Assembly: GCF_021026375.1 (NCBI RefSeq)
Contig: NZ_JAJNDB010000001.1
Coordinates: forward strand, 1,860,001-1,924,000
Length of the DNA stretch: 64,000 bases
Direction: 5' to 3'
From: Actinomycetospora endophytica
GTDB lineage: Bacteria > Actinomycetota > Actinomycetes > Mycobacteriales > Pseudonocardiaceae
Positions within the stretch are counted from its first letter, which is position 1. Each line of letters opens with the position of its first letter. This document shows positions 1 through 13,229 of this stretch, piece after piece. The notes under the pieces were generated by a model that worked only from the letters and a program-made list of their open reading frames with translations, was not told the origin of the DNA and searched no databases. Position numbers and translations under genes: made by a program.

Positions 1-2920
1 TGTGGCGATGGCGGGCTCGGGCTCGCTGTCCACGGCCGCGATCGACGTGGCCTCGGGCTCGGTGACGCTGGCCGGGGCCGGAGGTCTGTCCGCCGCTGGG
101 ACTACCACCGGCCAGGCATCGGCTGCGCTCGTCGGTACTGGCTCGCTGAGCACCGCAGCCATCGACCTGGCGCAGGACTCCGTGGCGCTCAGCGGATCCG
201 GGAGCCTGTCGGCGTCCGGAGTGACCACCGGGCAGGCCTCGGTCGCCCTGGCTGGCGCCGGTGCTCTCGCGGCGACCGCGGTGGACCTCGCTCAGGGCAG
301 CGTCGCGCTGCATGGCGCAGGCGCACTCACCGCGTCCACCCTCGCCACCGGCGTGGCTTCGGTCGCTCTCGTCGGCTCCGGTGCGCTCCAGGCGTCGGGG
401 ACGGACCTCGGTCTGACGACAGCGGCGCTGGCCGGAGCAGGGATGCTCACGGCTGCCGCCACGGACGTCGCCCAGGGCTCCGTGGGTCTGGCGGGTGCTG
501 GCGTGCTCAGCGCCGCGGGCACCACCACCGGGATCGCCTCGGCCGCGCTGGCCGGGTCCGGCGTGCTCACGGCGCCTGCCTCGCAGGGCCAGTTCGCCTC
601 GGTAGCGCTGGCCGGGTCCGGGACGCTGTCGACCTCCGCTATCGACCTCGCCCAGGCCGCGGTCTCGCTGGTCGGAGCAGGCTCCGTGACCGCCGCCGGT
701 GTCGACGTAGCCCTGGCGATCGTCAACCTGGCCGGATCCGCGGCGCTGGCCGCGAGCGCCACCGACCTCGGGCTGAGCAGCGTCTCGTTGACCGGCTCGG
801 GAGCGCTCTCCGCGCTCGGGGTGGACATCCAGCCCGCCTCGGTCTCGCTGGCGGGCTCGGGAGCCCTGGCCGCTTCGGCGACCGTGCTGGCGCAGGCCAG
901 CGTTGCGTTCTCGGTCTCCGGGGGACTGAGCGCCGTGGCGATCGACGTGGCCGCCACCTCGGTGGCGCTGCACGGCTCGGGCACGCTGACCAGCAGCGCC
1001 ATCGACCTCGCCCAGGCGGCAGCTGCGATGGCGGGCACCGGCGCCCTGGCCACCGCAGCGGCAGTCACCGGCCAGGCCTCGGTGGCGTTGGCGGGCTTCG
1101 GCACGCTGGCCGCCAGCGCGCTCGACCTGGCCTACACCTCGGTCGCGTTCGCCGGGGCCGGTTCGCTGAGCGTTCCGGCGACGACCACCGGCATCGCCCA
1201 GGTGGCTCTGGGCGGTCGCGGGGCTCTGAACGCCGCCGCGATCGACGTCGGGCTGACCTCGATGGCCTTGAGTGGATCCGGCGCCCTCTCGGCGACTCCG
1301 CTGATGACCGGGATGGCGTCCGTCGCCTTCGTCGGGGCCGGAGCCCTGGCCGCGGTGGCCCTGGACGTTGCCCTCGACGCGGTCAGTCTCGCTGGGGCCG
1401 GTCAGATGACCACGTCGGCCCTCGACATCGGGCTCGTCGCGGTCACGGTGGCCGGTTCCGGCGGCGTGGCTACGGTCGCGGTCGACGTCGCGATGGGCTC
1501 GGTGGTCCTCGTCGGGTCCGGCGTGCTGTTCGCGAGCCCGGGCGGTGGCCAGTTCACCAGCGCGACGCTCGCGGGCACCGGCGCGTTGACGGCCAGCGGG
1601 ATCGACGTGGCCCCAACCAGCGTCGCCCTGGCCGGTTCTGGCTCGCTCGCGGCCACGGACATCGCCACGGGGCTCGCCAGCGTCGCCCTGGCCGGGACGG
1701 GCGTGCTGACGACCGCCGCGTACGCCCAGCAGTTAGTCGCGGCGACCTTCACCGGCACCGGTGCGCTCGTCGCGAGCGCCATCGACGTCGGGGTGGCCGC
1801 GGCGAGCCTGCACGGGGTCGGCTCGCTCTCGGTCGCGGCGCTGGATGTCGCTCTGGCGGCGGTGGGTCTGGCCGGGACGGGCACCCTCAGCGCGTCTGGC
1901 GGCACGACGGGCCTGGCAGCGGCCTCGATGGCTGGGAACGGCGTCCTGAGCGCCGTAGCGGGGCGCACGGCCACCGAGACGGTGCCGCTGAGCGGCTCGG
2001 GGGTCCTCGCGGCCTCGGCGATCGTGCTGGGGCAGACGACGGTGGCCCTGCGCGGGTCGGGAAGCCTCTCCGGGGCCGCTCTCGATCTCGCGTACGGCTC
2101 GGTGTCCCTCCACGGGAGCGGCGCCGTGACCACGTCGGCCATCGACGAGGCCGGGTCCGCGGTCGCCATCACGGGCCAGGGCGGACTGGCCGCCGCTGCG
2201 GTCGACCTGGCGTACGCCAGCGTGACGCTCACCGGCGTCGGTTCGCTCGCGGTCGACGGGCTGACCGGCAACGAGGCCGCGGTCGTGCTGACCGGCGACG
2301 GCGAGCTGTCGATCGCTGCGCAGACCGCCGCGTACTGCAGCGTGGCGCTGACCGGCATGGGCTTCCTCGCCGCGACCGATCTGGTCGTCGGGGTGGCCCA
2401 GGTGGCGCTTCGCGGGGCCGGGGCCCTCGCGGCAACCGGCACGGGCCAAGCGCTCGACACGGTGGCCCTGGCCGGGTCGGGGACGCTGGCTGTGAGCACC
2501 CTGGCCGCCGGTCTGGCGCAGGTCGCCCTTCACGGGTCTGGGTCGCTCTCGACCAACGCCCTACCGGGCTCGGTCAACGCGGTCAGTCTCGCCGGGGCGG
2601 GCACGGTGGCGGTGAGCGCGCTGCGCATCACGACGCCGACGATCACCTTGTCCGGCACCGGGACGCTCGCCGCGGTCAGCGTTGCCACCCAGTACGTGGC
2701 CGCGGTGCTCGCGGGAGCAGGTTCGCTGTCGAGCACGGCCAGGGCTCAGGCTCTGAGCACCGTCGATCTGTCCGGGCAGTTGTCCCTGCAGGCGGCGGCG
2801 CTGCGCGCGGTCTCTGCGGCGGCTGCACTCGCCGGTTCCGGTTCGCTGTCGAGCGCCGGGACGGTGGTCGGCCAGGCCGTGGTCATCCTCGCTGCGAGCG
2901 GCGTGCTCGGCGTCGGAGAG
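1..2920 (+). repeat. Uninterrupted coding tandem repeat, 60-bp unit, about 48 copies
   Basis: Each 60-base block begins in the same phase (usually gGTGGCGCTGgcc or a variant), so register is kept over about 2.9 kb. Units diverge in sequence while keeping the encoded pattern, so protein structure rather than recent DNA duplication maintains them. There is no constant repeat and variable spacer alternation, so it is not a CRISPR array. Confidence 0.85.
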
Positions 2921-2983
2921 GCCACCGTGATCCCGCGCTCGGACAAGAACCCGCGGCTCGGGCTCATCCCGCTGTTCATGTGA
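2..2983 (+). CDS. Giant 20-residue-repeat phage structural protein (partial at 5' end)
   Basis: The reading frame is open to the left window edge, so the true start is probably upstream. Almost the whole protein is one repeat with consensus close to xVALAGSGxLSAxAxDLAxx, about 48 copies, followed by a short non-repeat tail ending in LGLIPLFM. Units are exactly 20 residues with no insertion or deletion, which suggests a solenoid such as a beta-helix or fibre shaft. It lies directly upstream of an endolysin and a holin, where minor tail or tail-fibre genes usually sit in actinobacteriophages. Role as a tail fibre or minor tail protein is inferred from context and repeat style, not from a recognised domain. 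No signal peptide can be judged because the N-terminus is missing. Confidence 0.7.
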   Translation: MAMAGSGSLSTAAIDVASGSVTLAGAGGLSAAGTTTGQASAALVGTGSLSTAAIDLAQDSVALSGSGSLSASGVTTGQASVALAGAGALAATAVDLAQGSVALHGAGALTASTLATGVASVALVGSGALQASGTDLGLTTAALAGAGMLTAAATDVAQGSVGLAGAGVLSAAGTTTGIASAALAGSGVLTAPASQGQFASVALAGSGTLSTSAIDLAQAAVSLVGAGSVTAAGVDVALAIVNLAGSAALAASATDLGLSSVSLTGSGALSALGVDIQPASVSLAGSGALAASATVLAQASVAFSVSGGLSAVAIDVAATSVALHGSGTLTSSAIDLAQAAAAMAGTGALATAAAVTGQASVALAGFGTLAASALDLAYTSVAFAGAGSLSVPATTTGIAQVALGGRGALNAAAIDVGLTSMALSGSGALSATPLMTGMASVAFVGAGALAAVALDVALDAVSLAGAGQMTTSALDIGLVAVTVAGSGGVATVAVDVAMGSVVLVGSGVLFASPGGGQFTSATLAGTGALTASGIDVAPTSVALAGSGSLAATDIATGLASVALAGTGVLTTAAYAQQLVAATFTGTGALVASAIDVGVAAASLHGVGSLSVAALDVALAAVGLAGTGTLSASGGTTGLAAASMAGNGVLSAVAGRTATETVPLSGSGVLAASAIVLGQTTVALRGSGSLSGAALDLAYGSVSLHGSGAVTTSAIDEAGSAVAITGQGGLAAAAVDLAYASVTLTGVGSLAVDGLTGNEAAVVLTGDGELSIAAQTAAYCSVALTGMGFLAATDLVVGVAQVALRGAGALAATGTGQALDTVALAGSGTLAVSTLAAGLAQVALHGSGSLSTNALPGSVNAVSLAGAGTVAVSALRITTPTITLSGTGTLAAVSVATQYVAAVLAGAGSLSSTARAQALSTVDLSGQLSLQAAALRAVSAAAALAGSGSLSSAGTVVGQAVVILAASGVLGVGEATVIPRSDKNPRLGLIPLFM

Positions 2984-2997
2984 CTCAGGAGGTCCTC

Positions 2998-3894
2998 GTG
3001 CTCGGTGTCGACAACACCGCGGGCATCACCGACGTGGCAGCCATGAAGGCCGCGGGCTACACCGCGATCTTCCGCTACCTCTCGAACACGCCCTCGAAGA
3101 ACCTGATCATGTCGCAGGCTCCGTACGACACGGAGCTGCGGCGCTACCTCGACAACGGGGTGGCGGTGGTCATGAACTGGGAGTCGTCCGGCCACATCGA
3201 CGACAACCAGACCAACCACCCGGGCGACGCCCACGCCCAGGGCGTCGAGGACGCGACCCGCGCCAACGACCAGGCCAGGAAGATGGGCCACTCCGAGGCG
3301 CCGATCTACTTCTCGATCGACTTCGACTGCTCGGACTGGGCGGGGCTCACGGCGTACTTCCAGGCCGTGGCCTCGGTGATCGGGCTGGCCCGCACCGGGG
3401 TCTACGGCGGCTACTGGGTCGTCGACCACCTGGTGAACAACGGCCTGGTCACCTATGTCTGGCAGACGCTGGCCTGGTCGACGGTCAACGGCGTGGCGTA
3501 CTCCCGGCACCCTCGGGCCAATGTCATCCAGCGGGTCGGGGAGGTCACCGTCGCCGGGGTCGCCTGCGACGTGGACGAGATCCTCACCCCCGCTGATTTC
3601 GGTCAGCTCCCGCGGGGCGCTGCTCCCGCGCCGACTCCTGCTCCTGTCACGCTGCCGGAGATCGTGGACGGCTCGACGTCGGCGCTGGTGTGGAATCTCC
3701 AGCTCTTCATGAACCGGGCCTTCGCCAGCTACAGCCACATCGACGCCGGGCCCGGCCCCACGTCGCGCTGTGGGCCGCAGACCGAGGCGGCGGTGACCGA
3801 GTTCCAGCGCCGGATGGGAATCTCGACAGCGCCGCCCTTCGCGGTCGGGCCGAAGACCTGGGCGGCGCTGGAGTCGTTCGGCTTCCAGCCCTGA
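2998..3894 (+). CDS. Endolysin: DUF1906 glycoside-hydrolase-like domain plus peptidoglycan-binding domain
   Basis: Predicted cell-wall hydrolase of about 298 residues. The N-terminal part (about 1-200, starting MLGVDNTAGITD, with FRYLSN, YFSIDFDCSDW and GVYGGYW) fits the DUF1906/Rv2525c-like glycoside-hydrolase fold. A Pro/Ala linker leads to a C-terminal peptidoglycan-binding type 1 domain (about 220-298; CGPQTEAAVTEFQRRMG, VGPKTWAAL). I chose GTG 2998 because AGGAGG at 2987-2992 lies 5 bases upstream; an earlier in-frame GTG at 2980 overlaps the previous stop but has no comparable site. There is no signal peptide, so release would depend on the holin encoded at 4267. It works with the preceding structural gene as the late lysis module of a prophage. 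Confidence 0.85.
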   Translation: MLGVDNTAGITDVAAMKAAGYTAIFRYLSNTPSKNLIMSQAPYDTELRRYLDNGVAVVMNWESSGHIDDNQTNHPGDAHAQGVEDATRANDQARKMGHSEAPIYFSIDFDCSDWAGLTAYFQAVASVIGLARTGVYGGYWVVDHLVNNGLVTYVWQTLAWSTVNGVAYSRHPRANVIQRVGEVTVAGVACDVDEILTPADFGQLPRGAAPAPTPAPVTLPEIVDGSTSALVWNLQLFMNRAFASYSHIDAGPGPTSRCGPQTEAAVTEFQRRMGISTAPPFAVGPKTWAALESFGFQP

Positions 3895-3896
3895 CA

Positions 3897-3938
3897 CGAC
3901 AACACCCCGGGACCAGAGCGGTCTCGGGGGTGTTGTCG
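3897..3938. terminator. Bidirectional hairpin between convergent genes
   Basis: CGACAACACCCCGGGA pairs with TCTCGGGGGTGTTGTCG around a short loop. It lies 2 bases after the endolysin stop and just past the stop of the leftward small gene, so it can end transcription from both sides. Confidence 0.75.
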
Positions 3939-3944
3939 ACGGAC

Positions 3945-4175
3945 CTAGGGCTTGCTCAGCGAGCCCCGGTAGCGAAGTCCGCCCCGTCCACCGCAGCCAT
4001 CGCACGGCCCGGAAGCGACGAAGGGCTCGTCATCCCACATGTTCAGGCCGGGTCCTGTGTTCTTCAGGTAGCGCGCGTCGTCACCCCACTTCGCGCGCAT
4101 GGGTCCGTTGGCAGGACCGTTGGCGAGGACGTTCGTGCAGCCCTCACAGAGGTCTAGCGGAGTGACTTGCGACAT
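3945..4175 (-). CDS. Small cysteine-motif protein (76 aa), putative zinc-binding phage protein
   Basis: Not a family I can name. The product starts MSQVTPLDLCEGC and ends with PCDGCGGRGG and a basic tail; the CEGC and CDGC pairs could bind one zinc ion, as in DnaJ-like or ribbon knuckles. Start ATG 4175 has an AGAGGGG-type ribosome site about 6 bases upstream. It is transcribed against the lysis genes and shares their hairpin terminator. Third-position GC is high, supporting real coding. Its function is unknown. Confidence 0.6.
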   Translation of the reverse strand: MSQVTPLDLCEGCTNVLANGPANGPMRAKWGDDARYLKNTGPGLNMWDDEPFVASGPCDGCGGRGGLRYRGSLSKP

Positions 4176-4266
4176 GGGGAGCCCCTCTCTCCGGTGACCC
4201 CTGCTCATCGGTTGATCGAGGAGCGTCGTTTCACCCCCGCGTCTCGCGGGCCTTCGGGAGGCACCC

Positions 4267-4560
4267 ATGACCAGTCCCGTCTCCGACTTCGAGTCGTCCT
4301 CCGGTGAGCAGGTGGCCAACGATGTCGCGAACCTGTCCTCGACCCCCAGGCCCGTGCTCTGGAGCCACCTGGCGGCCTTCGTGCTCGCGCTGGGGCTCGC
4401 GGCGGTGAACTCGGCGGTCTGGGCCCAGATCCCGGGCGGTGCCGCCATCACGATCTCGGTGGCCAGCATCGTCGTCCAGGGCGTGGTGCAGGGCATCGCG
4501 GCTTGGCTGGCCCACATCCAGGTCGCTCCGGTCTCCGGAGGCGGCGCGCACGAGAAGTAG
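4267..4560 (+). CDS. Putative holin (97 aa, two membrane segments)
   Basis: Small protein with a hydrophilic N-terminus, two hydrophobic stretches (about 33-52, HLAAFVLALGLAAVN; about 61-85, AAITISVASIVVQGVVQG) and a short polar tail ending GGAHEK. GGGAGG lies just upstream of ATG 4267. Size, topology and position two genes after an endolysin match actinobacteriophage holins, which form membrane lesions so the lysin can reach the wall. A strong terminator follows, consistent with the end of the late operon. Holin identity is inferred, since holins share little sequence. Confidence 0.65.
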   Translation: MTSPVSDFESSSGEQVANDVANLSSTPRPVLWSHLAAFVLALGLAAVNSAVWAQIPGGAAITISVASIVVQGVVQGIAAWLAHIQVAPVSGGGAHEK

Positions 4561-4572
4561 GTACACAGAGAC

Positions 4573-4625
4573 GGCCCCCGTCGAGCGCCCACCCCCCAGG
4601 GTGCTCGGCGGGGGCCTTCTTGCGT
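4573..4625 (+). terminator. Strong intrinsic terminator after the holin gene
   Basis: GGCCCCCGTCGAGC (4573-4586) pairs almost perfectly with GCTCGGCGGGGGCC (4603-4616), followed by TTCTTGCGTTT. It ends the rightward lysis operon. Confidence 0.8.
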
Positions 4626-4657
4626 TTCAGGGCGTGCTCCGCCCCGGGCGCCTCCAG

Positions 4658-4843
4658 CTACCCGAAGAGATCCTTGAAGACGACCACCAGGCCGCCGATG
4701 GCGGAACCGGCGGCGCCGATCAAGCGGAGCAGGTAGAGGCGCTTCGCGCGACGGCGCTCCAGCTCGTCAAGAGTGGCTTCCGGCGCGTCATGAGCGTCCT
4801 GCGGCTGCTCTCGCTCGTGTTCCAGCTCGTCGTTCGTCGTCAT
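4658..4843 (-). CDS. Small membrane-anchored protein (61 aa)
   Basis: Unknown family. The N-terminal half is acidic and helical (NDELEHEREQPQD), followed by a basic stretch ELERRRAKR and one hydrophobic C-terminal segment LIGAAGSAIGGLVVVF. This fits a tail-anchored membrane protein. Codons keep GC in the third position. The ribosome site is weak (GAGGG about 10 bases upstream of ATG 4843). It may be an accessory lysis or exclusion gene, but no function can be assigned. Confidence 0.5.
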   Translation of the reverse strand: MTTNDELEHEREQPQDAHDAPEATLDELERRRAKRLYLLRLIGAAGSAIGGLVVVFKDLFG

Positions 4844-5149
4844 GGCCGAACATCCCTCAGGAGGGCAGGGGGTACCTGCCGTGGGTGAGTGGTCGAGTGC
4901 GCCCGTGGCCCTTGGGCTGACCGGGGGGACCTGGCCTGGGCCCTCATCCGGCTACCACTAACGATGGTCGACGAGGTGCCGAGGCGGCGCGGATCCGCGA
5001 TCGGCACTCCCACTACTATCAGAAGTCGTCACTTATCAATGCTGCGCACAGCTCCGATGTTGACCTTGAACTCCGTCGAGAACGGACGATGCACAGGTCT
5101 CACGCGCTGAAAGGCCCCCGAAAGCCTTGCGCGGTGTGATAAGGCCCGT
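4844..5149. other. Intergenic stretch without a supported gene
   Basis: The stretch has a locally AT-richer patch (about 5010-5100, with ACTACTATCAGAAG and CACTTATCAATG) suggestive of promoters for flanking leftward genes. No reading frame here has both a ribosome site and typical codon use. I see no attachment-type repeat. Confidence 0.4.
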
Positions 5150-5272
5150 TCAGCGCAGGGTGAGTTGCACGCGGCGTGGTGGGCGGCGCCGCTTGCCGAC
5201 GGCCCAGCCCCACCAATAGCCCAGCGGGCCGACGAGGGCGGCGGCGATCAGGGCGCAGATAACCTCACACAT
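5150..5272 (-). CDS. Forty-residue small membrane protein
   Basis: The frame runs from ATG 5272 to TGA 5150, with GGAGG eight bases upstream of the start. The product begins MCEVICALIAAALVG, has an aromatic membrane patch GYWWGWAVG and ends in the basic tail GKRRRPPRRV. One transmembrane segment with a positive cytoplasmic tail is likely. It is the first gene leftward from a divergent intergenic region that also precedes the HTH gene at 5430. Function unknown; support rests on the ribosome site and topology. Confidence 0.55.
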   Translation of the reverse strand: MCEVICALIAAALVGPLGYWWGWAVGKRRRPPRRVQLTLR

Positions 5273-5429
5273 CGGGCGGACCTCCAGCGTCCGTCAAGGG
5301 CCCGGCCGGTGTTCCAGCACCGCGTCCGGGCCCGCTCCATGTCCGAGCCCTCACCGTGGCACCGGCGAGCCAAACGCGCCAGACACGTCATTCACGCCAG
5401 CAGGTCGCATCCACGCCGTCCGAGCCACG

Positions 5430-5615
5430 ATGATCTCCGCCGTGTCCGAGTTGGTGTCGACGTCCGAGGCGGCGAAGGCCGTCGGGGTGTCGGCCCGCTC
5501 GCTGGCCCGGTGGGCCCAGGAGGGCACGCTGGAACCCGAGCTGGTCACTCCGGGCGGGCACCTGCGCTGGGACGTCGAGCGGCTCCGCCAGCAGCTCCGG
5601 GAGCTGCGTAAGTGA
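5430..5615 (+). CDS. MerR-like helix-turn-helix protein (61 aa), excisionase-type
   Basis: A compact DNA-binding domain: TSEAAKAVGVSARSLARWAQ is a MerR/HTH_17 helix-turn-helix followed by a wing-like VTPGGHLRW. Size and fold match phage and integrative-element excisionases or recombination directionality factors, and small regulators. It overlaps the next gene by four bases (GTGA), so the two are translationally coupled. It lies 1.2 kb from the serine recombinase gene, so it could control excision direction, but a plain transcriptional role is equally possible. Confidence 0.7.
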   Translation: MISAVSELVSTSEAAKAVGVSARSLARWAQEGTLEPELVTPGGHLRWDVERLRQQLRELRK

Positions 5616-6259
5616 GCGCTGCCGACTCCGCTCAGGTCGTCGCCGCCATCGCGGGCAGCGTCAGCGCGGTCGGCACGCTGGCTGCCGCGTACGCGGCGCT
5701 CAGGACGACCCGGAGCGCGGACGAGACGGCTCGGCGGGCGAGCACGGCGCTGGGTCGGACCGCCCGGCCGGACGTGCGGGTCACCGTGCTGATGCGGAAT
5801 CACTCGCCGGACCCCGCGCCATTCCGAGTCAACGTCTTCAACGTCAGTCGACGGTTCGCTGCGGCCAACATCGACGTCTGGTTCGAGCGACTCGATGGCC
5901 AGGGCAAGCCACCTGAGCCGATGAAGCCCGTGCGCCACCTGGAGCCCGACGAGCACAAGGACGCTGGCGCCGGGTCGCTGGCATGGCGATGGGAGCCTCC
6001 TTCGCCCGACGCGATCCCGCTGGACTGGTACGACATTCTTGCGGTGAGGATGCGCTACCAGGACGAGAGCCAGCTCGTGACCTGGGAGCGTCCGGCGGGG
6101 ACGTTGCGGGTGACCTGGACCCAGGATGACGAGGGCACCTGGAAGGCATCCGTGGTCTACAGCGCCGAGGCGCCGGAGCCCGTCGAGGTCGGACGCGAGA
6201 CCCCGGCTCAGCTCGGCTACTGGCGAACCCTGGGCCGGGCGATCAAAGGGACGCGGTAG
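5612..6259 (+). CDS. Unknown membrane-anchored protein (215 aa)
   Basis: Starts at GTG 5612 overlapping the previous stop. An N-terminal hydrophobic segment (about 8-28, VVAAIAGSVSAVGTLAAAYAAL) is followed by a soluble domain with many beta-type stretches (RPDVRVTVLMRN, FRVNVFNVSRR, GTLRVTWTQ). The layout is that of a membrane-tethered domain exposed on one side, as often seen in actinobacterial hypothetical proteins. No catalytic motif is visible. It is the middle gene of a three-gene rightward unit (HTH, this gene, 6263 gene) in the prophage interior, where lysogeny-expressed cargo may sit. Confidence 0.6.
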   Translation: MSAADSAQVVAAIAGSVSAVGTLAAAYAALRTTRSADETARRASTALGRTARPDVRVTVLMRNHSPDPAPFRVNVFNVSRRFAAANIDVWFERLDGQGKPPEPMKPVRHLEPDEHKDAGAGSLAWRWEPPSPDAIPLDWYDILAVRMRYQDESQLVTWERPAGTLRVTWTQDDEGTWKASVVYSAEAPEPVEVGRETPAQLGYWRTLGRAIKGTR

Positions 6260-6262
6260 GAC

Positions 6263-6796
6263 GTGGTCGAGAGCATCGGGAGAGCGGCGGGTGACCCGCT
6301 CTTCGAGATCGCGGTCTACCGGGTGACTCCGAGGCGCTGGCACCAGGAGCTGGACGAGCTAGACGGGCAGGTCCACGAGTTCCTTGCTCCGGATCGGGAC
6401 TACCTCTCGGAGTCCCGCTACCAGGAGCGCTTCGAGCGACTCCAGGAGGCGTTCCGGGCCCAGGTCGGCGAGTTCCCCTACGGCCAGGCCCTCGGGTGGT
6501 TGCGCCTGATCCACGACGGCCCGGGGCCCGCGGTCAAGGGGTACTCCTACAAGCTGCCGCAGAAGCGCTTCCAGCGGCGCTTCCAGCAGGCCCACTTCCG
6601 CGCGACGGGAACGGAGCTTGAGGTCAGCTTCCGGCGCTCAGGAACCGCGGCGGACTTCGTGAAGGAGCTGCGCGCCGCGATCGTGGCGACCAGGTCCCGG
6701 GGGCGCATCTTCGAGGGGCGGTGGCTGGACATGGCTGCCTTCGACAAGGTCGCCCCGTTCGTCGACTGGCAGGGCCTGCTCAGCCCGCCTGGCTGA
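6263..6796 (+). CDS. Unknown soluble protein (177 aa)
   Basis: Starts at GTG 6263, three bases after the previous stop, with AAAGGGA in the end of the upstream gene as a possible ribosome site. The product is rich in charged helices (QELDELDGQVHEF, RYQERFERLQEAF) and basic patches (KLPQKRFQRRFQQ). No known domain recognised. Its 3' end overlaps the convergent serine recombinase gene by 17 bases, which is unusual and could couple their expression by antisense transcription. Confidence 0.6.
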   Translation: MVESIGRAAGDPLFEIAVYRVTPRRWHQELDELDGQVHEFLAPDRDYLSESRYQERFERLQEAFRAQVGEFPYGQALGWLRLIHDGPGPAVKGYSYKLPQKRFQRRFQQAHFRATGTELEVSFRRSGTAADFVKELRAAIVATRSRGRIFEGRWLDMAAFDKVAPFVDWQGLLSPPG

Positions 6797-7478
6797 CCTG
6801 TCCGCCCACGGCTGGCTCGGACCGACGGAGCACCGCCGCGACGGTCGAGGGATACCACCGAGACCCGCCCTGGCTGGTGGGCACCTCGAAATAGTTGAAG
6901 GTTGAAGCGATCTCCGCGAGCGTCATGCCCTGGTCCCGCAGCTCCCGCGCGCGGGCCACCAGCTCGGCGTGAGCACGGTCTGGGCGACCGAGGACCTTCC
7001 CGTCGCGGCGGAGCGCCTGCAGGGCGTCCGAGGTCCGCTGGGCGATCAGCTCTCGCTCGAACTGCGCAAACGACGCCAGGACGTTGGCCATCATCGCGCC
7101 GGAGGGCGTGGAGGTGTCCACGCCGAGGTCCATGACCACCAGCGACCAGCCGTTGCGCTTCGAGCGGTCCACGAGGCCGGTGAAGTCGTGCACCGAGCGG
7201 GAGAGCCGGTCGAGCTTGGCCACCATGAGGTTGGCGGCCTCACCGCCATCGAGCGCGCCCAAGGCCGCGAGCAGCCCCGGGCGCCCGACGATGGTCTTCG
7301 CGCTGATGCCCTCGTCGGCCTGCTCAGCCACGACCCGCCAGCCTCGGCGGTCGACCTCGTCGGCGAGCTTGGCCCGCTGCGCGTCGAGTCCGAGCCCGCT
7401 CTGGGCCTGGTCCTCGGTCGAGACCCGGACATAGGTGATGACGGTGTCCGGATCGGCCGTCTTGCGGCGTGCTGGCAC
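6780..7478 (-). CDS. Serine recombinase (resolvase/invertase family, 232 aa)
   Basis: The N-terminal resolvase domain has the nucleophile Ser20 in ITYVRVSTEDQ, then GRPGLLAAL and KLDRLSRSVHDF with the conserved arginines. A long helix (ANVLASFAQFERELIAQRT) joins it to a short C-terminal DNA-binding domain with MTLAEIASTFNYFEVPT. At 232 residues it is shorter than large phage serine integrases (450-600) and resembles resolvases or short integrases of actinomycete elements. It may integrate and excise this element, whose right end is a clean break in tadA, or may only resolve multimers; the real integrase could lie left of the window. It is the last gene of the leftward set. Confidence 0.85.
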   Translation of the reverse strand: MPARRKTADPDTVITYVRVSTEDQAQSGLGLDAQRAKLADEVDRRGWRVVAEQADEGISAKTIVGRPGLLAALGALDGGEAANLMVAKLDRLSRSVHDFTGLVDRSKRNGWSLVVMDLGVDTSTPSGAMMANVLASFAQFERELIAQRTSDALQALRRDGKVLGRPDRAHAELVARARELRDQGMTLAEIASTFNYFEVPTSQGGSRWYPSTVAAVLRRSEPAVGGQVSQAG

Positions 7479-7545
7479 GTCTCCTCCATACAGCTAACGG
7501 GCGTTGGGTGTATGCGATCGGGCGAAACCGGACATCTAGCGCCGT

Positions 7546-7905
7546 CTACTGTTCGCGCGAGACGGGGGTAGACGCAGGTGCCCCCTCGGGGGCCCAACTC
7601 GGGTCCCAGCCGGGGCGGTCGAAGCGCAGCCCCCAGGCGATCCACCGAACCCCGTCGAGGAACGCCTGAGTCCGCTCGTCGCGCTCAGGGTCGGCGTAGA
7701 AGTCCCGCCACATCTCGTACTCCCGCAGGATCGCCCGGTTGGCGTCGATCCGGGCGAGGTCGCGCTGGCGCTGGCATGAGTGTTGTCCCTCGGGCAGGCC
7801 CCACCATGCGCAGGCGCATATCTGGCTGGCCGCCGTGCGCTGCTGGGCGTGGAGGGCCTCGTGGGTCCAGGCCAGTAGACGGTGGTTGCACGGACGGCGG
7901 CTCAT
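7546..7905 (-). CDS. Unknown Cys/Trp-rich protein (119 aa)
   Basis: ATG 7905 overlaps the stop of the upstream membrane gene (ATGA), indicating coupled translation. The N-terminal part has four cysteines (RPCNHRLL, CACAWWG, HSCQRQ) with histidines, so metal binding is possible. The C-terminal half is helical and charged (RDFYADPERDERTQAFLDG). No family recognised. It is co-transcribed with the FtsK/TraB-like gene block, like small accessory genes of conjugative elements. Confidence 0.6.
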   Translation of the reverse strand: MSRRPCNHRLLAWTHEALHAQQRTAASQICACAWWGLPEGQHSCQRQRDLARIDANRAILREYEMWRDFYADPERDERTQAFLDGVRWIAWGLRFDRPGWDPSWAPEGAPASTPVSREQ

Positions 7906-8339
7906 CGGGCGTGCCGTCCCGAGCGCACCGGCACGGTCACCGGACAGGTGATCGGTGCGGTCACGGGCTCCAGCGCGGTAGCGCGGAAGGGGCGGGCGTC
8001 CAGCCCCCACGCCTCGTTGTGCCGGGCGGCGGCCTCGGCGTCGAAGGGCGGGAGCGCCGGGTGCTCGCGGCCGTAGCGCGCCTGCTTGCGCGCCCGAGCG
8101 GCCCGCTGCCGCACCAGGACCAGGTAGACCGCCCAGGGCACCGTCCCGAGCAGCGTGAACGGCAGCAGGACGGCGGAGATCGTGGCCATGCCCAGGAACG
8201 CCAGCCACATGAACGGCTCCGCCCAGGGCATGGCGGTCAGCGTGTCGACCAGCTTGACCCGCGGCGCCTTGGCCCGGCGGCGGCCCACCGGCACCGAGAC
8301 CCCCACCGGGCCCACGAACCCGTACAGTCGAATGCCCAT
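7902..8339 (-). CDS. Two-span membrane protein (145 aa)
   Basis: A basic N-terminus ([11 protein letters not shown]) precedes two hydrophobic segments (about 42-62, [19 protein letters not shown]; about 63-78, [14 protein letters not shown]) and a basic cytoplasmic tail ([12 protein letters not shown]). Similar small membrane proteins, called Spd, accompany TraB in Streptomyces elements and help plasmid spread. That role is inferred from topology and neighbours only. The gene ends in ATGA overlap with the next one. Confidence 0.6.
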
Positions 8340-8429
8340 CTCAGCGTCCTCTCGCGATGCGCAGGCCCAGGTCCTGCGCGCTCAGGCTTCTCAACCATTC
8401 GTCGGTGATCTCGGGAGCGCGACAGGACA

Positions 8430-8645
8430 TCAGTAGTCGTCCGCATGTGCGTGGTTCTTCGATCCCTCGTGCCAGGACCAGTCACCAGGAAGGTCAACGG
8501 ACTTCTTGTGGGTCCGGCTGTTCCAACTGATCCCGGCGACCTTGACCGTCCACGAGACCATCCAGCCGTTGCGCTCTGACCTGCTGATGTTCAGCCAGAC
8601 CGGCAGCGGCTTGAGCTTGATCCGGCGTCTGTAGCGGATCCCCAT
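8430..8645 (-). CDS. DUF4236-like small basic protein, prophage copy (71 aa)
   Basis: The start MGIRYRRRIKLKPLP, then LNISRSE, and WNSRTHKKSVDLPG resemble DUF4236 proteins (typical pattern MGxRxRKSxKxxPxxRxNxS). ATG 8645 has GGAG eight bases upstream; ATG 8650, directly after the preceding stop, is possible but too close to that site. A clearly related gene lies in the chromosome at 27726-27911 with the same WNSRTxKKxVDLPG motif. The family's function is unknown. Confidence 0.7.
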   Translation of the reverse strand: MGIRYRRRIKLKPLPVWLNISRSERNGWMVSWTVKVAGISWNSRTHKKSVDLPGDWSWHEGSKNHAHADDY

Positions 8646-8650
8646 GTCAT

Positions 8651-8878
8651 TCACTCCGTCTTCTGGAGGCCGAGGAGTGCATCGGCGATGCGACGCCCCC
8701 AGCGCACTCGGTATCCCTTGCCGCGACACCACTTGCATCGCCGGAACGCCTTCCGCTTCGGCGACTTCACCTTGCCCTTCTCGCAATGCGGGATCGGGCA
8801 GTCCTTGAACGGCCACCAGACGCAGCAGAACGCGTACCAGCAGAACCACAGCGCGGCGATGGCGAGCCAGGTGGTCAT
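8651..8878 (-). CDS. Membrane-anchored zinc-ribbon protein (75 aa)
   Basis: An N-terminal membrane segment (TTWLAIAALWFCWYAFCCVWW) is followed by a ribbon with CPIPHC and CKWCRGKGYR, the CxxCxGxG pattern of DnaJ-type zinc knuckles. ATG 8878 overlaps the preceding stop (ATGA), with AAGGA upstream. It belongs to the leftward operon headed at 12544. A role in the cell envelope during transfer is possible but not shown. Confidence 0.6.
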   Translation of the reverse strand: MTTWLAIAALWFCWYAFCCVWWPFKDCPIPHCEKGKVKSPKRKAFRRCKWCRGKGYRVRWGRRIADALLGLQKTE

Positions 8879-9036
8879 GGGCTCATTTCCTTCGCGAGTG
8901 CGTTCATCAGGTCGAGCCGAGTGATCACCGAGCCGTCGTTCAGCTCGAAGGCGTCGGCGTCGCCCAGGGCGTCGAGCAGGTCTTCCAGGAACTGCCGTCG
9001 TGACACCCCGGGAGGTAGCCCCGCTTCGTTGGTCAC
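8875..9036 (-). CDS. Small acidic helical protein (53 aa)
   Basis: GTG 9036 has a GGAGGG site immediately upstream, better than the GTG at 9057. The product (VSRRQFLEDLLDALGDADAF, DGSVITRLDLMNALAKE) is acidic and helical, ending four bases inside the next gene. Unknown family. Its 5' region carries two of the GGTAGC motifs clustered at 9014-9168. Confidence 0.5.
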   Translation of the reverse strand: MTNEAGLPPGVSRRQFLEDLLDALGDADAFELNDGSVITRLDLMNALAKEMSP

Positions 9037-9168
9037 CGGCCCTCCGGGAGGTAGCACCCGGTAGCGGTGGGCCCGGCGGAGGTAGCGGCACCGCTACCCG
9101 GGGTGCTACCTCGGTGGGGGACGTTTGCGCAGCTCAGAAGGCTGCTTCCTGCCGCGGTAGCGGGTAGC
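9014..9168. repeat. Cluster of eight GGTAGC motifs; candidate TraB recognition (clt) site
   Basis: GGTAGC occurs at 9014, 9050, 9060, 9081, 9156 and 9163, and inverted as GCTACC at 9093 and 9105. Several share GGAGGTAGC, and 9081-9098 forms the perfect hairpin GGTAGCGG-CA-CCGCTACC. The cluster straddles the 115-bp gap at the 3' end of the FtsK/TraB-like gene. TraB proteins of Streptomyces plasmids are known to bind clt loci built of short repeats next to tra genes; this cluster has that form. The hairpin could also be a terminator for the gene. Confidence 0.6.
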
Positions 9169-9172
9169 AGGG

Positions 9173-11332
9173 TCACATCTCACCGTCCAGATCAGGCCCC
9201 TGGGGCAGCTCGGGGACACCATCGGCCGGGCCGATACCGGCCAGCACGTGCTCGCGCCGCAGGCCACGCCGGTTCTTCCCGCCGATCTTGATCTGGGTGG
9301 TGCTCATGCCCTCCGGCAGAGCCTCAGCCAGCGTGTCCGGGGTCCAGTCGGCGTAGGCGTCTGGACGAAGCTGGCGGAGTCGCTCGCAGATCTCCTCGGA
9401 GTGCATCCCGACCCGCTCGGACTCCACGAAGATGGTCTGCAGATCCTCCAGCAGCGAGTACGACGCGGGTCGCTCGACTTCCTCTCCGGCCGCCTGGCCG
9501 GTGATGTTCCCGGCGGCCACGCGCGCGTCGTAAGCACGCTTCGCGATCCGCTTCGCGGCGTCCGCGCCCGAGTAGTACGTGCGCACCACCACGGCGTCGT
9601 CGAATGCCCCCTTGAGGTATCCGATGCCCTTGTCGCGCTGCGAGAGGATCGTGGCCTGAATGCCCTGCTTGTAGGCCGACGTCCCCAGGATCATGTCGTT
9701 GGTGACCTGATCCGCGACGCGCAGGCAGAACCGGTGCGAGACGTTCGCGGAGACGCCGGTCGGCAGCGAGTCCTTGTCCGGGCGCTGGGTGGCGAGGATG
9801 AGGATCACGCCGAACGCCCGGCCGCGCTTGATGATCTTCTCGGCGAGCCTGCCGCAGTCCTTGCCGTAGTCCTCGTGGCCGAACACCTCGTGGCATTCGT
9901 CGATGACCATGACGATCGGCTTGAGCCCCAGGTTCCGCATCGAGGCGGTCTGCCGGGTGACCTTCATGTCGGGCGCCAGGCCGTCCTTGCCGAGCTTCTT
10001 CACGACCTCGGCCCGGCGCCCGACCTCCCGGACCAGATCCCGGAGCTGGTCGCGGGTCTGCTCGATGTCCTCGTCGGCGATGCCCGAGACGTAGAAGTGC
10101 GCCATCTGCTCGAACATCCCGAGGTCACCGGAGCCCTTGTGCTCGGCGACCCGGAGCTGAGGCAACGGGTCGAGGGCGAGGGCCAGGAGCAGGCCACGGA
10201 TGGCTGCGGTCTTCCCCGCGCCCGGCAGCGATCCCACCAGCAGGTTGCCGTACATCATCTCGAAGCTGACCGACCGGCCGCGCTGGTCGTAGCCGAACGG
10301 GATGTTGCCGAAGCAGTCCGCCTTCCACCCGGAGCGGTCGTACGGGGCCTTCTTCACCAGCTTCGACAGCTCCTGGTTACCGACCCAGAGCACCAGGCGT
10401 CCGGCGTGCACCGCCGGGTCCGACTCCGGCCACACCGTGCCCAGCGGACGGCGCAGGCCTGAGGCCAGCTCGGTGCGTTTCTCCATGATCTGGGCAGCCG
10501 TGACGCCGTGCGGGAGGTCGACCTCGGCGCGGAAACCGGGGCCGTCGGTGGTGATCGGCTTCGGGAAGCGGACCCCGTCCTTCGGGTCCTCCTTGATCGC
10601 CGCGTTGATCGCCGCGATGGACAGCGACCCGAGCGCCTTGATGACCATCTTCGAGGTCAGGCGGAACGTCTCGTTCGGCTTGCTCGTGTAGTACGCGTCC
10701 ACCAGGGGGCGGTCCTCGGGCGCCCCCAGCTTCACCAGGACGCCCAGCACGCCCACCAGAGCGAGGGCGACCGCCCACGGGGGCAGGGTCAGGTAGGCGG
10801 TCACGACGACGCCCACCCCGCCCAGGAGGGCGAAGGCCGACCCGATGAGGCGGCGGCGGACGGTCTCGGACCACTCCTTGCGGGCGGTCTTCCACGCCTG
10901 CTGGTCCGCCCCCTGGTGGGCGAGGGCGGCCATCTGCCGCCCCTGCTTGTCCCAGACCCAGGCCCAGTAGGCGGCGATCGTCCGCCCCGCCCCCACGAAC
11001 GTCCGCAGGAACGCGCGGTAGGCGTACAGGGGGGCGCGGGTGAGGTGGAAGGTCGCCCAGTTCCCGACATAGCGCACCAGCCACAGGGCGACCGCCTTCG
11101 CGTCGGCCCACGACTTCATCCACCGCGGCACGATCAGGCGGTGCTCGGGCAGGTCGAGCCCGGTCAGCTCGGCCAGGGACAGGTGGCCCTGCGGCGGGTC
11201 GACGGCCAGCGGCACGTCCTCCGCCGCAGCTCCCAGCACCTCGGTGGGGGTCTCCGGCATCATCACCGCGACCTCGTCGGAGTCGTCCTCTTCCACCTGC
11301 GGGCGGATCGGGACCACCTTGTTGTCGGTCAT
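9173..11332 (-). CDS. FtsK/SpoIIIE-type DNA translocase, TraB-like (719 aa)
   Basis: Predicted ATP-driven double-stranded DNA pump. After a basic N-terminal region there are membrane segments (about 162-200, SAFALLGGVGVVVTAYL and WAVALALVGVLGVLV). The FtsK motor has Walker A GSLPGAGKT (about 367-375) and Walker B PIVMVIDECHEV (about 472-483), then LILATQRPDKDSLPTGV and SHRFCLRV typical of the family. A C-terminal extension ending near residue 719 could hold a winged helix for DNA recognition. ATG 11332 overlaps the previous stop (ATGA). In actinomycete integrative elements such a protein alone moves the element between hyphae. Chromosomal FtsK is an alternative reading, but size, neighbours and element context favour transfer. 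Confidence 0.85.
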   Translation of the reverse strand: MTDNKVVPIRPQVEEDDSDEVAVMMPETPTEVLGAAAEDVPLAVDPPQGHLSLAELTGLDLPEHRLIVPRWMKSWADAKAVALWLVRYVGNWATFHLTRAPLYAYRAFLRTFVGAGRTIAAYWAWVWDKQGRQMAALAHQGADQQAWKTARKEWSETVRRRLIGSAFALLGGVGVVVTAYLTLPPWAVALALVGVLGVLVKLGAPEDRPLVDAYYTSKPNETFRLTSKMVIKALGSLSIAAINAAIKEDPKDGVRFPKPITTDGPGFRAEVDLPHGVTAAQIMEKRTELASGLRRPLGTVWPESDPAVHAGRLVLWVGNQELSKLVKKAPYDRSGWKADCFGNIPFGYDQRGRSVSFEMMYGNLLVGSLPGAGKTAAIRGLLLALALDPLPQLRVAEHKGSGDLGMFEQMAHFYVSGIADEDIEQTRDQLRDLVREVGRRAEVVKKLGKDGLAPDMKVTRQTASMRNLGLKPIVMVIDECHEVFGHEDYGKDCGRLAEKIIKRGRAFGVILILATQRPDKDSLPTGVSANVSHRFCLRVADQVTNDMILGTSAYKQGIQATILSQRDKGIGYLKGAFDDAVVVRTYYSGADAAKRIAKRAYDARVAAGNITGQAAGEEVERPASYSLLEDLQTIFVESERVGMHSEEICERLRQLRPDAYADWTPDTLAEALPEGMSTTQIKIGGKNRRGLRREHVLAGIGPADGVPELPQGPDLDGEM

Positions 11333-12060
11333 CGAGCTGCCTTTCCAGCGACAGTCAGACGGGGGCGGGAGTCGTAGAGGGCGAGCGCGCGCTCGGCCTT
11401 CTTGGTGCCGACGGCCCACTCGGTCTTGATGGCGTCTCGCCCTGGGCGGCGCCCCCGGGCGGTCGCCTGGGCGGCCAGCCAGTCGGCGATCTCCTCGTCG
11501 GTGGGGGCGGGGGCGGACTCGCCCCCTTCGGTGGGCGGGGCGGGCGACTGGGCGGTGGGCGCCGGTGTGGGCGTCTGAGGCGGGGGCGGGTCCAGACAGA
11601 CGGGGACGGGCACGGTGGGCGGCTCAGCGGACGCTGAGGGGGCGGGAGCGGTCTCCGTGATCAGCGCGGGGGCGTCCGCCTGGGGCGGCTCGCCCTCGGC
11701 GCCCTGGGCGGGCGTGGGCGTTCCGCTCGTGGAGGCGAGGCGGGCCAGCTCGACCCCGCCGAGGACGAAGACCGGTCCGACCAGCCCGATCAGGCCGTAG
11801 GTCAGCACCCCGCACCAGCCGGTGACCAGCGACGCCCCGGCGACGAAGACGCCCGCCTCGACGCAGGCGTGGCGCCGGGTGTCGGTGAGCAGCACCCAGG
11901 TGCCGAGCACGTTGGTCACTTCCAGCACCACGACGATCGCGGCCAGGGCGAGGCCCCGCATGCCCGCCGCGTACGCCTCGTGCGTGGTCGAGGACGCCGT
12001 CACCGCGAGACCCGCGGCGACGCCGATCGCGGCGAGTCCGGTGAGCACGACGCGCCTCAT
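11329..12060 (-). CDS. DUF2637-like membrane protein with C-terminal helix-turn-helix-like tail (243 aa)
   Basis: Four hydrophobic segments (VVLTGLAAIGVAAGLAVT, GLALAAIVVVLEVTNVLG, AGVFVAGASLVTGW, VLTYGLIGLVGPVFVLGG) fill the first 110 residues. A Pro-rich linker and a charged helical end follow (DEEIADWLAAQATARG, KTEWAVGTKKAERAL). This is the layout of DUF2637 proteins encoded next to TraB or relaxase genes in actinobacterial elements; a second such protein is at 46340 here. Both ends overlap neighbours by four bases. A role in transfer or replication of the element is inferred. Confidence 0.65.
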   Translation of the reverse strand: MRRVVLTGLAAIGVAAGLAVTASSTTHEAYAAGMRGLALAAIVVVLEVTNVLGTWVLLTDTRRHACVEAGVFVAGASLVTGWCGVLTYGLIGLVGPVFVLGGVELARLASTSGTPTPAQGAEGEPPQADAPALITETAPAPSASAEPPTVPVPVCLDPPPPQTPTPAPTAQSPAPPTEGGESAPAPTDEEIADWLAAQATARGRRPGRDAIKTEWAVGTKKAERALALYDSRPRLTVAGKAAR

Positions 12061-12365
12061 CGGCGATCACCTCGCGCGCCGATGAACACCGCGACGCACA
12101 CGGCGATCAGGGCGGCGGTCAGGACGAGCGTGGCGACCATCCCGACGAGGTAGACCAGGAAGCTGCCGACACCGAACAGCAGGGCGGCGACCCCGACCGG
12201 GCCCCAGACCGCCAGCCACATCAGGTCCGGGTACTCGCGCAGCAGCTCGGTGACCGGGGTGCGCTCCGGCGGCGGGGGAGTGGGCTCCGCGCGCTCGTCC
12301 TCGCGCACCACGCGGAGTGGGCGGGACTTCGGGGCGGCGTCCTCGTGACGCTGTGGAGCGCCCAT
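12057..12365 (-). CDS. Two-span small membrane protein (102 aa)
   Basis: A hydrophilic N-terminal half (RPLRVVREDERAEPTPPPP) precedes two adjacent membrane segments (LMWLAVWGPVGVAALLFGVG; LVYLVGMVATLVLTAALIAV). ATG 12365 overlaps the upstream stop by one base, and its own stop overlaps the next start (ATGA). Position and size recall Spd-type spread proteins. No domain name can be given. Confidence 0.6.
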   Translation of the reverse strand: MGAPQRHEDAAPKSRPLRVVREDERAEPTPPPPERTPVTELLREYPDLMWLAVWGPVGVAALLFGVGSFLVYLVGMVATLVLTAALIAVCVAVFIGARGDRR

Positions 12366-12544
12366 CAGGCCTGCTCCAGGTCATCGGTCCGGACGATGAC
12401 GACACACCACTCCGGGGGGATCTTCCGCTCGTCACGGGTGGCGGCCACCTCGGCGGCGCGGATCGACTGGTAGAGCGAGCGGATCAGCAGACAGTCGACG
12501 GTGGTGAGGTTGTTCTCGTCGAGGCGGGTCAGGAAGTCGCTCAT
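12365..12544 (-). CDS. First gene of the leftward transfer operon (59 aa, unknown)
   Basis: Small helical protein starting MSDFLTRLDENNLTTVD and ending in PPEWCVVIVRTDDLEQ. ATG 12544 has GGGGGA nine bases upstream. It starts only about 37 bases from the junction with tadA, so its promoter must lie in that short gap, in tadA, or at the other element end when the element is circular. Function unknown. Confidence 0.6.
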   Translation of the reverse strand: MSDFLTRLDENNLTTVDCLLIRSLYQSIRAAEVAATRDERKIPPEWCVVIVRTDDLEQA

Positions 12545-12559
12545 CGTGCGTCGTCCCCC

Positions 12560-12590
12560 ATGAGCGGCTAGCCCGCTCTTCGTGAAGACG
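12560..12590. other. Right junction of the integrated element within tadA P-loop codons
   Basis: Downstream of about 12582 the rightward frame reads VKTTVLSALLA, the second half of the TadA Walker A motif (normally GGTGSGKTT). Upstream the frame loses all similarity and meets TAG at 12569-12571. The break is therefore at the GK of the P-loop. I see no long direct repeat here, as expected for a serine recombinase with a two-base crossover. The left end and the N-terminal half of tadA lie outside the window. Confidence 0.7.
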
Positions 12591-13229
12591 ACGGTGCTCT
12601 CCGCGCTGTTGGCCCGGGTCCCGGCCGAGGAGCGGATCGTCCTGGTCGAGGATGCCGAGGAGCTGCGCCCGCGGCATCCGCACGTGGTCCGGCTGGTGTC
12701 GCGGCCCGCGAACGTCGAGGGCGCGGGCACGGTGCTCCTGCGCGACCTGGTCCGCCAGGCGCTGCGGATGCGGCCCGACCGGCTGGTGGTCGGCGAGGTC
12801 CGCGGCGCCGAGGTCTGCGAGCTGCTCGCGGCGCTGAACACCGGGCACGACGGCGGGGCGGGCACCGTCCACGCCAACTCTCCGCGCGAGGTGCCCGCCC
12901 GCCTCGAGGCGCTGGCGGCGCTCGGCGGGATGACCCCGGAGGCGCTGCGCAGCCAGGTGGCGGCGGCGATCCAGGTCGTACTGCACGTGCGGCGACGGGC
13001 TGACGGCCGGCGGGTGCTGGAAGGGGTCGGGATCGTGCGGCGCGGGGACGCGGAGGGCCTCGTGGTGGTGCCCGCCTGGGGCCGCGAGGGCGGTTGGGCG
13101 GCCGGGCGACCCGACCTGGGGGCCATGCTCGCCGAGCGGGGCGTCGACGCGCCCTGGCCCTCCGCCGCCGGTGGCCGGCCCGCGTTGCAGGCCGGTGTCG
13201 CGTCGCTGCGGCCGGCGGTGACGGCATGA
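12582..13229 (+). pseudogene. tadA: TadA/CpaF secretion ATPase, C-terminal remnant
   Basis: The frame encodes the C-terminal ATPase core of the Tad/Flp pilus motor: end of Walker A (KTTVLSALLA), Asp box VLVEDAEELRP, Walker B RMRPDRLVVGEVRGAE and the His box NTGHDGGAGTVHAN. Full-length actinobacterial TadA has about 380-400 residues; the N-terminal half and most of the P-loop are missing because the element at 1-12581 interrupts the gene. No ribosome site precedes the first in-frame starts, so the fragment is probably not functional. Excision would restore it if the other half lies at the left end. The stop overlaps the tadB start (ATGA). Confidence 0.85.

Follow-up and report, generated by a model that had tools for sequence, protein, structure and literature searches.

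On the plasmid pSVH1 of Streptomyces venezuelae, an 8-bp motif is read by the C-terminal winged helix of the translocase TraB (PMC5133688, PMC3583192); its published consensus is GACCCGGA (PMC5133688), and the reading has been assigned to helix alpha3 (PMC3583192). For the plasmid pWTY27 the cis-acting locus of transfer (clt) recognized by TraA contains TGACACC four times, as direct repeats that were footprinted by the translocase (PMC3583192), while the Tra proteins of actinomycete integrative and conjugative elements (AICEs), such as that of pSAM2, are single FtsK-like translocases thought to move double-stranded DNA (PMC3218068). Here we analyzed a 64 000-nt stretch of the 6.98-Mb genome of Actinomycetospora endophytica ('the window'; positions 1,860,001 to 1,924,000 of NZ_JAJNDB010000001.1, contig C9 in our set), in which a translocase gene of the TraB type lies at the right end of a 57-kb prophage and is followed by eight copies of the word GGTAGC. 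We estimate a probability of roughly 0.9 that these copies represent the clt of the element, i.e. multiple copies of the TraB recognition sequence (TRS) for its own TraB-type translocase. The gene and the array are located as follows:

9173–11341, minus strand: TraB/FtsK-like double-stranded DNA translocase, 722 aa from the ATG at 11341, or 748 aa if translation starts at the in-frame GTG at 11419
9014–9168, no strand assigned: recognition array (putative clt) with eight GGTAGC sites, on the plus strand at 9014, 9050, 9060, 9081, 9156 and 9163 and on the minus strand at 9093 and 9105

The six direct and two inverted copies occupy 155 bases, at exactly the positions given in a first-pass annotation of this DNA, and the array begins 4 bp past the stop codon of the minus-strand gene, at the 3′ side where that annotation had placed it. 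GGTAGC occurs 37 times in the window compared with 16.4 copies expected by shuffling, a count reached by 0 of 100 shuffles, and 8 of the 37 copies fall within positions 9014–9168. The first-pass annotation had judged the cluster to be far above chance for a six-base word and had proposed a count across the genome; we found 2457 copies in 6.98 Mb, i.e. 0.35 per kb compared to ~52 per kb in the array (~150-fold), which bears out the enrichment and excludes an equal density. Direct pairs of GGTAGC spaced 1–30 bases apart exist at 35 places genome-wide, 5 of them in the array. The array window had a repeat score of 11.8, compared with a maximum of 4.9 among 25 control windows around the translocase gene. 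A small open reading frame (ORF) behind traB (8875–9057, minus strand) may start within the array, in which case the site at 9014–9019 is possibly coding. Outside the array, the 57-kb element (C9 1815231–1872584) carries GGTAGC 7 times on the plus and 26 times on the minus strand, which maybe just reflects coding direction.

The layout resembles that of pSVH1, whose TraB likewise combines an FtsK-like motor with a C-terminal DNA-reading domain and whose clt consists of short repeats that begin no more than ~20 bp from the traB stop, four copies one way and one the other. As a positive control, the blind repeat search used for the loci studied here was applied to pSVH1 and returned GACCCGGA five times, from +16 to +107 behind traB; in the window, too, an array of short repeats is found at the 3′ side of tra. 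However, the two proteins belong to different subfamilies (32% identity over 47% of the length), and the word is GGTAGC instead of GACCCGGA, in agreement with the earlier statement that the motif differs from the TRS of Streptomyces plasmids. The clt of pWTY27 is similarly placed, running from inside the tra 3′ end into the adjacent 159 bp (PMC3583192), but its word is different and its carrier is a plasmid, not a prophage. Compared to the Tra proteins of AICEs, the family studied here has arrays in many members of one TraB subfamily. A winged-helix C-terminal domain on a motor that recognizes a short DNA word is also known from FtsK gamma; the corresponding FtsK orienting polar sequences (KOPS) are dispersed and polar on chromosomes, in contrast to the dense local array of the window.

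The translocase itself matched PF01580 (E 3.1e-7, above the cut-off), phrog_1358 (E 3.4e-40) and FtsK structures (best E 2.7e-9); PF01580 and the FtsK structures identify an FtsK/SpoIIIE-type motor. Against NF041214, the equivalog for plasmid TraB, it scored 32.8 bits, where NCBIfam sets the cut-off at 800 bits. The translation shows a hydrophobic stretch by eye, a possible counterpart of the N-terminal membrane segments expected of TraB-clt transfer systems.

In order to compare the array with those of relatives, we collected translocase homologues from genomes and viral contigs. In a drawn set of 249 genomes of the same family (own genome included) 185 contain a homologue at E ≤1e-20, and none of the 15 other same-genus genomes in that table does. 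A single-protein query of the genome contigs gave no relative, whereas an alignment query did. Profile scans found 558 loci in named genomes and 87 in viral contigs, of which 80 each were kept. After removal of 26 near-duplicates and of 2 loci without 200 bases of 3′ flank, the genome loci decreased from 175 to 147, and the 80 viral loci decreased to 68 by removal of 12 duplicates. A first look at the 3′ flanks of 90 loci, window included, revealed in many of them short repeats arrayed in the first ~160 bp past the stop, with differing words such as CGCTAG, CTAGAG, CTAGAC, CTAGCA, GCTACA, GGTCTAC and CTAGGA. Aligned, the relatives' words take the form xTAGy (CTAGC, CTAGA, GTAGA, CTAGG), with GTAGC as the word of the window. 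A home-made mixture-model motif discovery per locus gave a noisy consensus in many loci and was dropped for counts of xTAGy; no figure rests on it. In 119 of the 147 genome loci we observed a TAG-type array in which one base clearly predominates after TAG (a 'called' locus), and the joint set of 215 non-redundant loci comprises 133 called and 82 uncalled ones. The first-pass annotation had named related translocase genes lacking the motif cluster as an observation that would speak against a recognition locus. GGTAGC arrays as such are indeed absent from the relatives, and some of these have other words or no clear array, but the TAG-type array stands at the same place in the 119 genome loci just mentioned.

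A second word family was found in a clade of viral TraB relatives with the hairpin CCGGAKG near the TraB C-terminus: all 34 such viral loci (among L202–L278) contain GAAACC at least 4 times within 300 bp of the stop. Further words were seen at single loci, namely CGCGACC (L271, L277), CGGAACAC (L261) and AGGGAGC (L087). From these words, the layout of a translocase gene followed by an array of its own word seems to extend beyond the TAG type. In two loci (L012, 3947–4096; L037, 1277–1373) a GTGAAC/CGTGAAC cluster, possibly regulator operators, lies 5′ of traB and is distinct from the 3′ array.

Next, we asked which TraB residues go along with the array word. We scanned every column of the TraB alignment in which gaps made up no more than 30%, with no region preselected, in 117 loci with a C or A call; this left out the 28 of 147 loci without clear majority base and two called G. 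Residue 692 accounted for 0.88 of 0.91 bits on the base after TAG, while the next best column reached 0.43. Over the 133 called loci Arg692 goes with C in 82 of 82 cases, Ile with A in 22, Met with A in 7, Asn with A in 3 and Ala with A in 2; the remaining called loci are Gln with G (4), Thr with C (4), Trp with C (2), Tyr with C (1), Lys with A (5) and Lys with C (1). A scan for the base before TAG gave column 688 on top; the shorter hairpin of the window leaves the others' 685 column without a window residue. At position 685, which was therefore defined in the unaligned sequence by counting two residues on from Gln683, a choice made after inspecting the sequences, Trp goes with C in 101/101, Tyr with C in 5/5, Pro with C in 2/2, Lys with G in 4/4 (the window among them), Asn with G in 3/3 and His with A in 1 of the 131 loci. 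The window, itself a member of both sets, has Lys685, Arg692 and GTAGC and fits the rule.

For correction of common descent we counted independent pairs, which have no branch in common, on a FastTree tree built from the motor domain only (residues 60–600). For residue 692 and the base after TAG we obtained on average 12.6 pairs with the association, 0 against it and 3.4 with no difference (median p 0.0002), and for residue 685 (Trp or not) and the base before TAG 7.7, 0 and 4.3 pairs, respectively (median p 0.008). Both crossed controls, 692 with the base before TAG and 685 with the base after it, were null. The 692 rule was found on genome loci; among the 68 held-out viral loci 14 are called, and they show Arg with C (10/10), Ala with A (1), Tyr with C (1) and Gln with G (2). 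When flanks were followed to +600, further loci showed the predicted word for the bases covered: GGTAGACC in L272 (Lys685, Asn692), CTAGCACC in L268 (Arg692), GTAGCGG in L202 and TGTAGCA in L235 (both Asn685, Arg692), and CTAGACC in L204 (Asn692). The proposal of a TraB recognition locus of new specificity is strengthened in that the word in relatives follows the TraB winged helix, and the pSVH1-like position of the array supports it as well. In the window, the domain and the two residues are located as follows:

9227–9460, minus strand: C-terminal winged-helix domain, proposed array reader, ~residues 628–705 (AlphaFold2, block pLDDT 88–94 for residues 631–700)
9287–9289, minus strand: codon of Lys685 in strand 682–686 of the predicted wing, associated by covariation with the base before TAG
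9266–9268, minus strand: codon of Arg692 in strand 689–695 of the predicted wing, third residue of the motif N-R-R-G, associated by covariation with the base after TAG

The AlphaFold2 model (model residue n corresponds to TraB residue n+600) predicts helices at 630–641, 648–658 and 668–674, followed by strands at 682–686 and 689–695. According to these predicted strands, residues 685 and 692 would be located on the two strands of the wing and off the third helix. With three helices followed by two long strands at high pLDDT, the C-terminus is predicted to form a winged-helix DNA-binding domain; its matches include winged-helix DNA-binding proteins, but their scores are weak (E of 0.1 at best in Foldseek, Z of up to 6 in VIA-align). 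By sequence, the C-terminal domain gave no match to FtsK gamma.

We then analyzed how the reader domain and the array change relative to the motor, using all 114 pairs of loci with a motor identity of at least 84%, of which 19 have different words and 95 the same word. The mean difference of reader minus motor identity was −0.17 in the different-word pairs compared to −0.04 in the same-word pairs, and the identity of the region behind the array minus that of the array was +0.11 and −0.03, respectively. In the 19 pairs with similar motors and different words, divergence is on average greatest in the reader domain and the array; as pairs share members, they do not count as 19 independent events. 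The closest of them is L038/L044, with motors 97% identical, Arg and Ile at 692 and the words CTAGC and CTAGA. In 90-base windows the DNA of these two loci is mostly 84–97% identical in the motor (lowest 77%), drops to 63–74% in the windows between about −210 and +150 relative to the stop, and is 70–97% behind the array (mean 0.87 over +150 to +330). We interpret this joint divergence as exchange of a cassette of reader and array; a faster change of both under selection is a conceivable alternative.

Iterons and operators likewise form arrays of short repeats, and the GGTAGC copies might be sites of another protein of the element (a replication initiator, an excisionase or a regulator) that lie behind traB by coincidence; the second, different cluster 5′ of traB in L012 and L037 (GTGAAC) would fit with such sites. 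We regard this as improbable, since a single TraB residue predicts the base after TAG far better than the other columns of the scan, which covered TraB only, and does so also after correction for descent, and since the array diverges together with the reader domain of TraB while the motor stays alike. The same link to TraB, here to residues 685 and 692, would be left unexplained if the inverted copies formed a hairpin acting as RNA or single-stranded DNA, e.g. a terminator, a processing signal or a replication origin. Inverted pairs do exist in the array (e.g. 9081–9098) and its RNA folds better than shuffled sequences (z −2.26, with 5 of 200 shuffles as good), but the T run of an intrinsic terminator was not seen in the sequence, and in some relatives the copies of the best word are all in one orientation (5/5 in L033 and 5/5 in L037). 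We rejected the hairpin as very improbable. Least of all do we believe in a functionless repeat that arose by chance or composition in a GC-rich genome, which we rejected too: GGTAGC is G+C-rich and the element has 70% GC, but the shuffles, the ~150-fold density over the genome and the arrays with changed word at the same place in relatives all speak against it.

Several observations weigh against reading the array as a set of TraB sites specified by the wing. Ala685 (C 3, G 2) and Gly685 (C 7, T 2, A 1) do not predict the base before TAG, and the narrower contrast of Trp/Tyr/Pro with Lys/Asn/Ala at 685 gave only 6 pairs with p 0.06. Among 18 uncalled loci with Arg692, the wider look at the flanks revealed a C-type TAG array in 4 (L074, L202, L235, L268) and in none of the other 14. 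TAG arrays are also missing in nine uncalled loci whose residue 685 is Lys or Asn (L086, L132, L161, L218, L230, L263, L271, L276, L277) and in two with Trp685 (L076, L085). L205 has Gln692 yet a CTAGAC array, and Lys692, found with A in five loci, is combined with C in L167 and L028. Of the 215 loci, 82 are uncalled, 34 of them from the GAAACC clade and the others with other words or no clear array, and the 3′ window ranks first among the repeat windows in only 113 of the 215 and within the top 10% in 182. The pair L113/L138 hardly dips, and in several pairs identity does not rise again past the array. FtsK gamma is not among the matches of the predicted domain listed by Foldseek or VIA-align, both of which gave only general winged-helix matches of low score, an absence that speaks for neither side. 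Finally, covariation in the window family points to the wing, whereas for pSVH1 the reading was assigned to helix alpha3 (PMC3583192). The residue rule thus holds within TAG-type arrays; beyond these, the same residues occur with other words or no clear array.

For the array as clt of the element, we propose the following mechanism. The C-terminal winged helix of TraB would bind the repeats, with the wing hairpin reading the variable bases that flank the constant TAG core: Lys685 would contact the G before it and Arg692 the C after it, and the core itself may well be read by the third helix. Adjacent sites would load a hexamer on the circular element, which would then be pumped as double-stranded DNA into a recipient cell; the hexamer and the transfer of double-stranded DNA are taken from papers on other plasmids. 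Because the reader-encoding end of traB adjoins the array, a single recombination event could swap both at once, giving a new specificity in which reader and sites still match. We consider it fairly likely that the wing is a modular reader with a simple code (at 692 Arg for C, Ile, Met or Asn for A and Gln mostly for G; at 685 Trp, Tyr or Pro for C and Lys or Asn for G), that reader and array constitute an exchangeable cassette of ~350 bp at the end of traB, and that it is used by prophages and AICEs.

The element that carries this system interrupts tadA. A counterpart of the C-terminal part of tadA is present in 14 of 16 other genomes of the genus, and the gene is uninterrupted in both genomes compared in detail (L189, L192). 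Here its left part ends near contig position 1815230 and its right part starts at window position 12584, with 57.35 kb between them, and the insertion point is the Walker A region (the element spans window 1–12584 plus L185, L186 and L187). At the left edge lies a gene for a 473-aa large serine recombinase, followed by terminase, portal, major head protein, tape measure, baseplate and lysin genes, and TraB and its array are found at the right end. Bounded by two junctions within a host gene and carrying genes for integrase, terminase, portal, head, tail and lysis, the element is, as judged from its genes, a prophage with a conjugation-type translocase. A portal gene is also present in 29 of 43 viral records with a TraB relative, the 43 being taken from the 80 viral loci. 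Either a phage may have acquired traB or an AICE may have entered a prophage. A third copy of the tadA edge within the element would hint at two tandem elements, and a search with a few short words gave nothing convincing. No replication gene was found among the element proteins scanned, which cover part of its genes. The remaining features are:

12582–13229, plus strand: C-terminal part of tadA, a gene interrupted by the 57-kb element, whose right junction lies at ~12584 (comparison with genomes of the genus)
11329–12365, minus strand: two small ORFs upstream of traB (11329–12060 and 12057–12365), possible accessory genes, no family match
8430–8654, minus strand: DUF4236 protein next to traB (family match)
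6780–7478, minus strand: small serine recombinase of the resolvase/invertase type, downstream in the same element (family matches)

In the position of a tail fibre, window 2–2983 encodes a 993-aa protein with many degenerate repeats of AGSGxLxAxAxDxAxxxVALxG, and after it follows an Rv2525c-like lysin (2980–3894).

The kind of system described here is already known, and the word, the two-residue rule, its predicted seat in the wing, the putative cassette exchange and the prophage setting found no counterpart in the literature as surveyed; the residue rule, the joint divergence and the prophage setting go beyond the first-pass annotation. In our literature search we recognized no account of clt or TraB arrays in prophages with CTAG or GGTAGC words, a weak absence in a search that did not address the wing code as such. 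For AICEs the question arises whether each TraB moves its own element only or serves others as well, and arrays and rule together turn this into a prediction that can be checked for each element separately. From the rule it can also be read which chromosomal sequences a TraB of this kind might pick up, and two residues would offer a way of changing its specificity. If the proposed reading is true, transfer specificity would be changed in one recombination step, similar to restriction systems that swap their target-recognition domains, and the elements and chromosomal stretches that can be mobilized by a given TraB would be readable from the sequence. The presence of the system in prophages suggests a second, conjugative route for some actinobacterial prophages, which could then spread as virus particles and also through conjugation driven by TraB.
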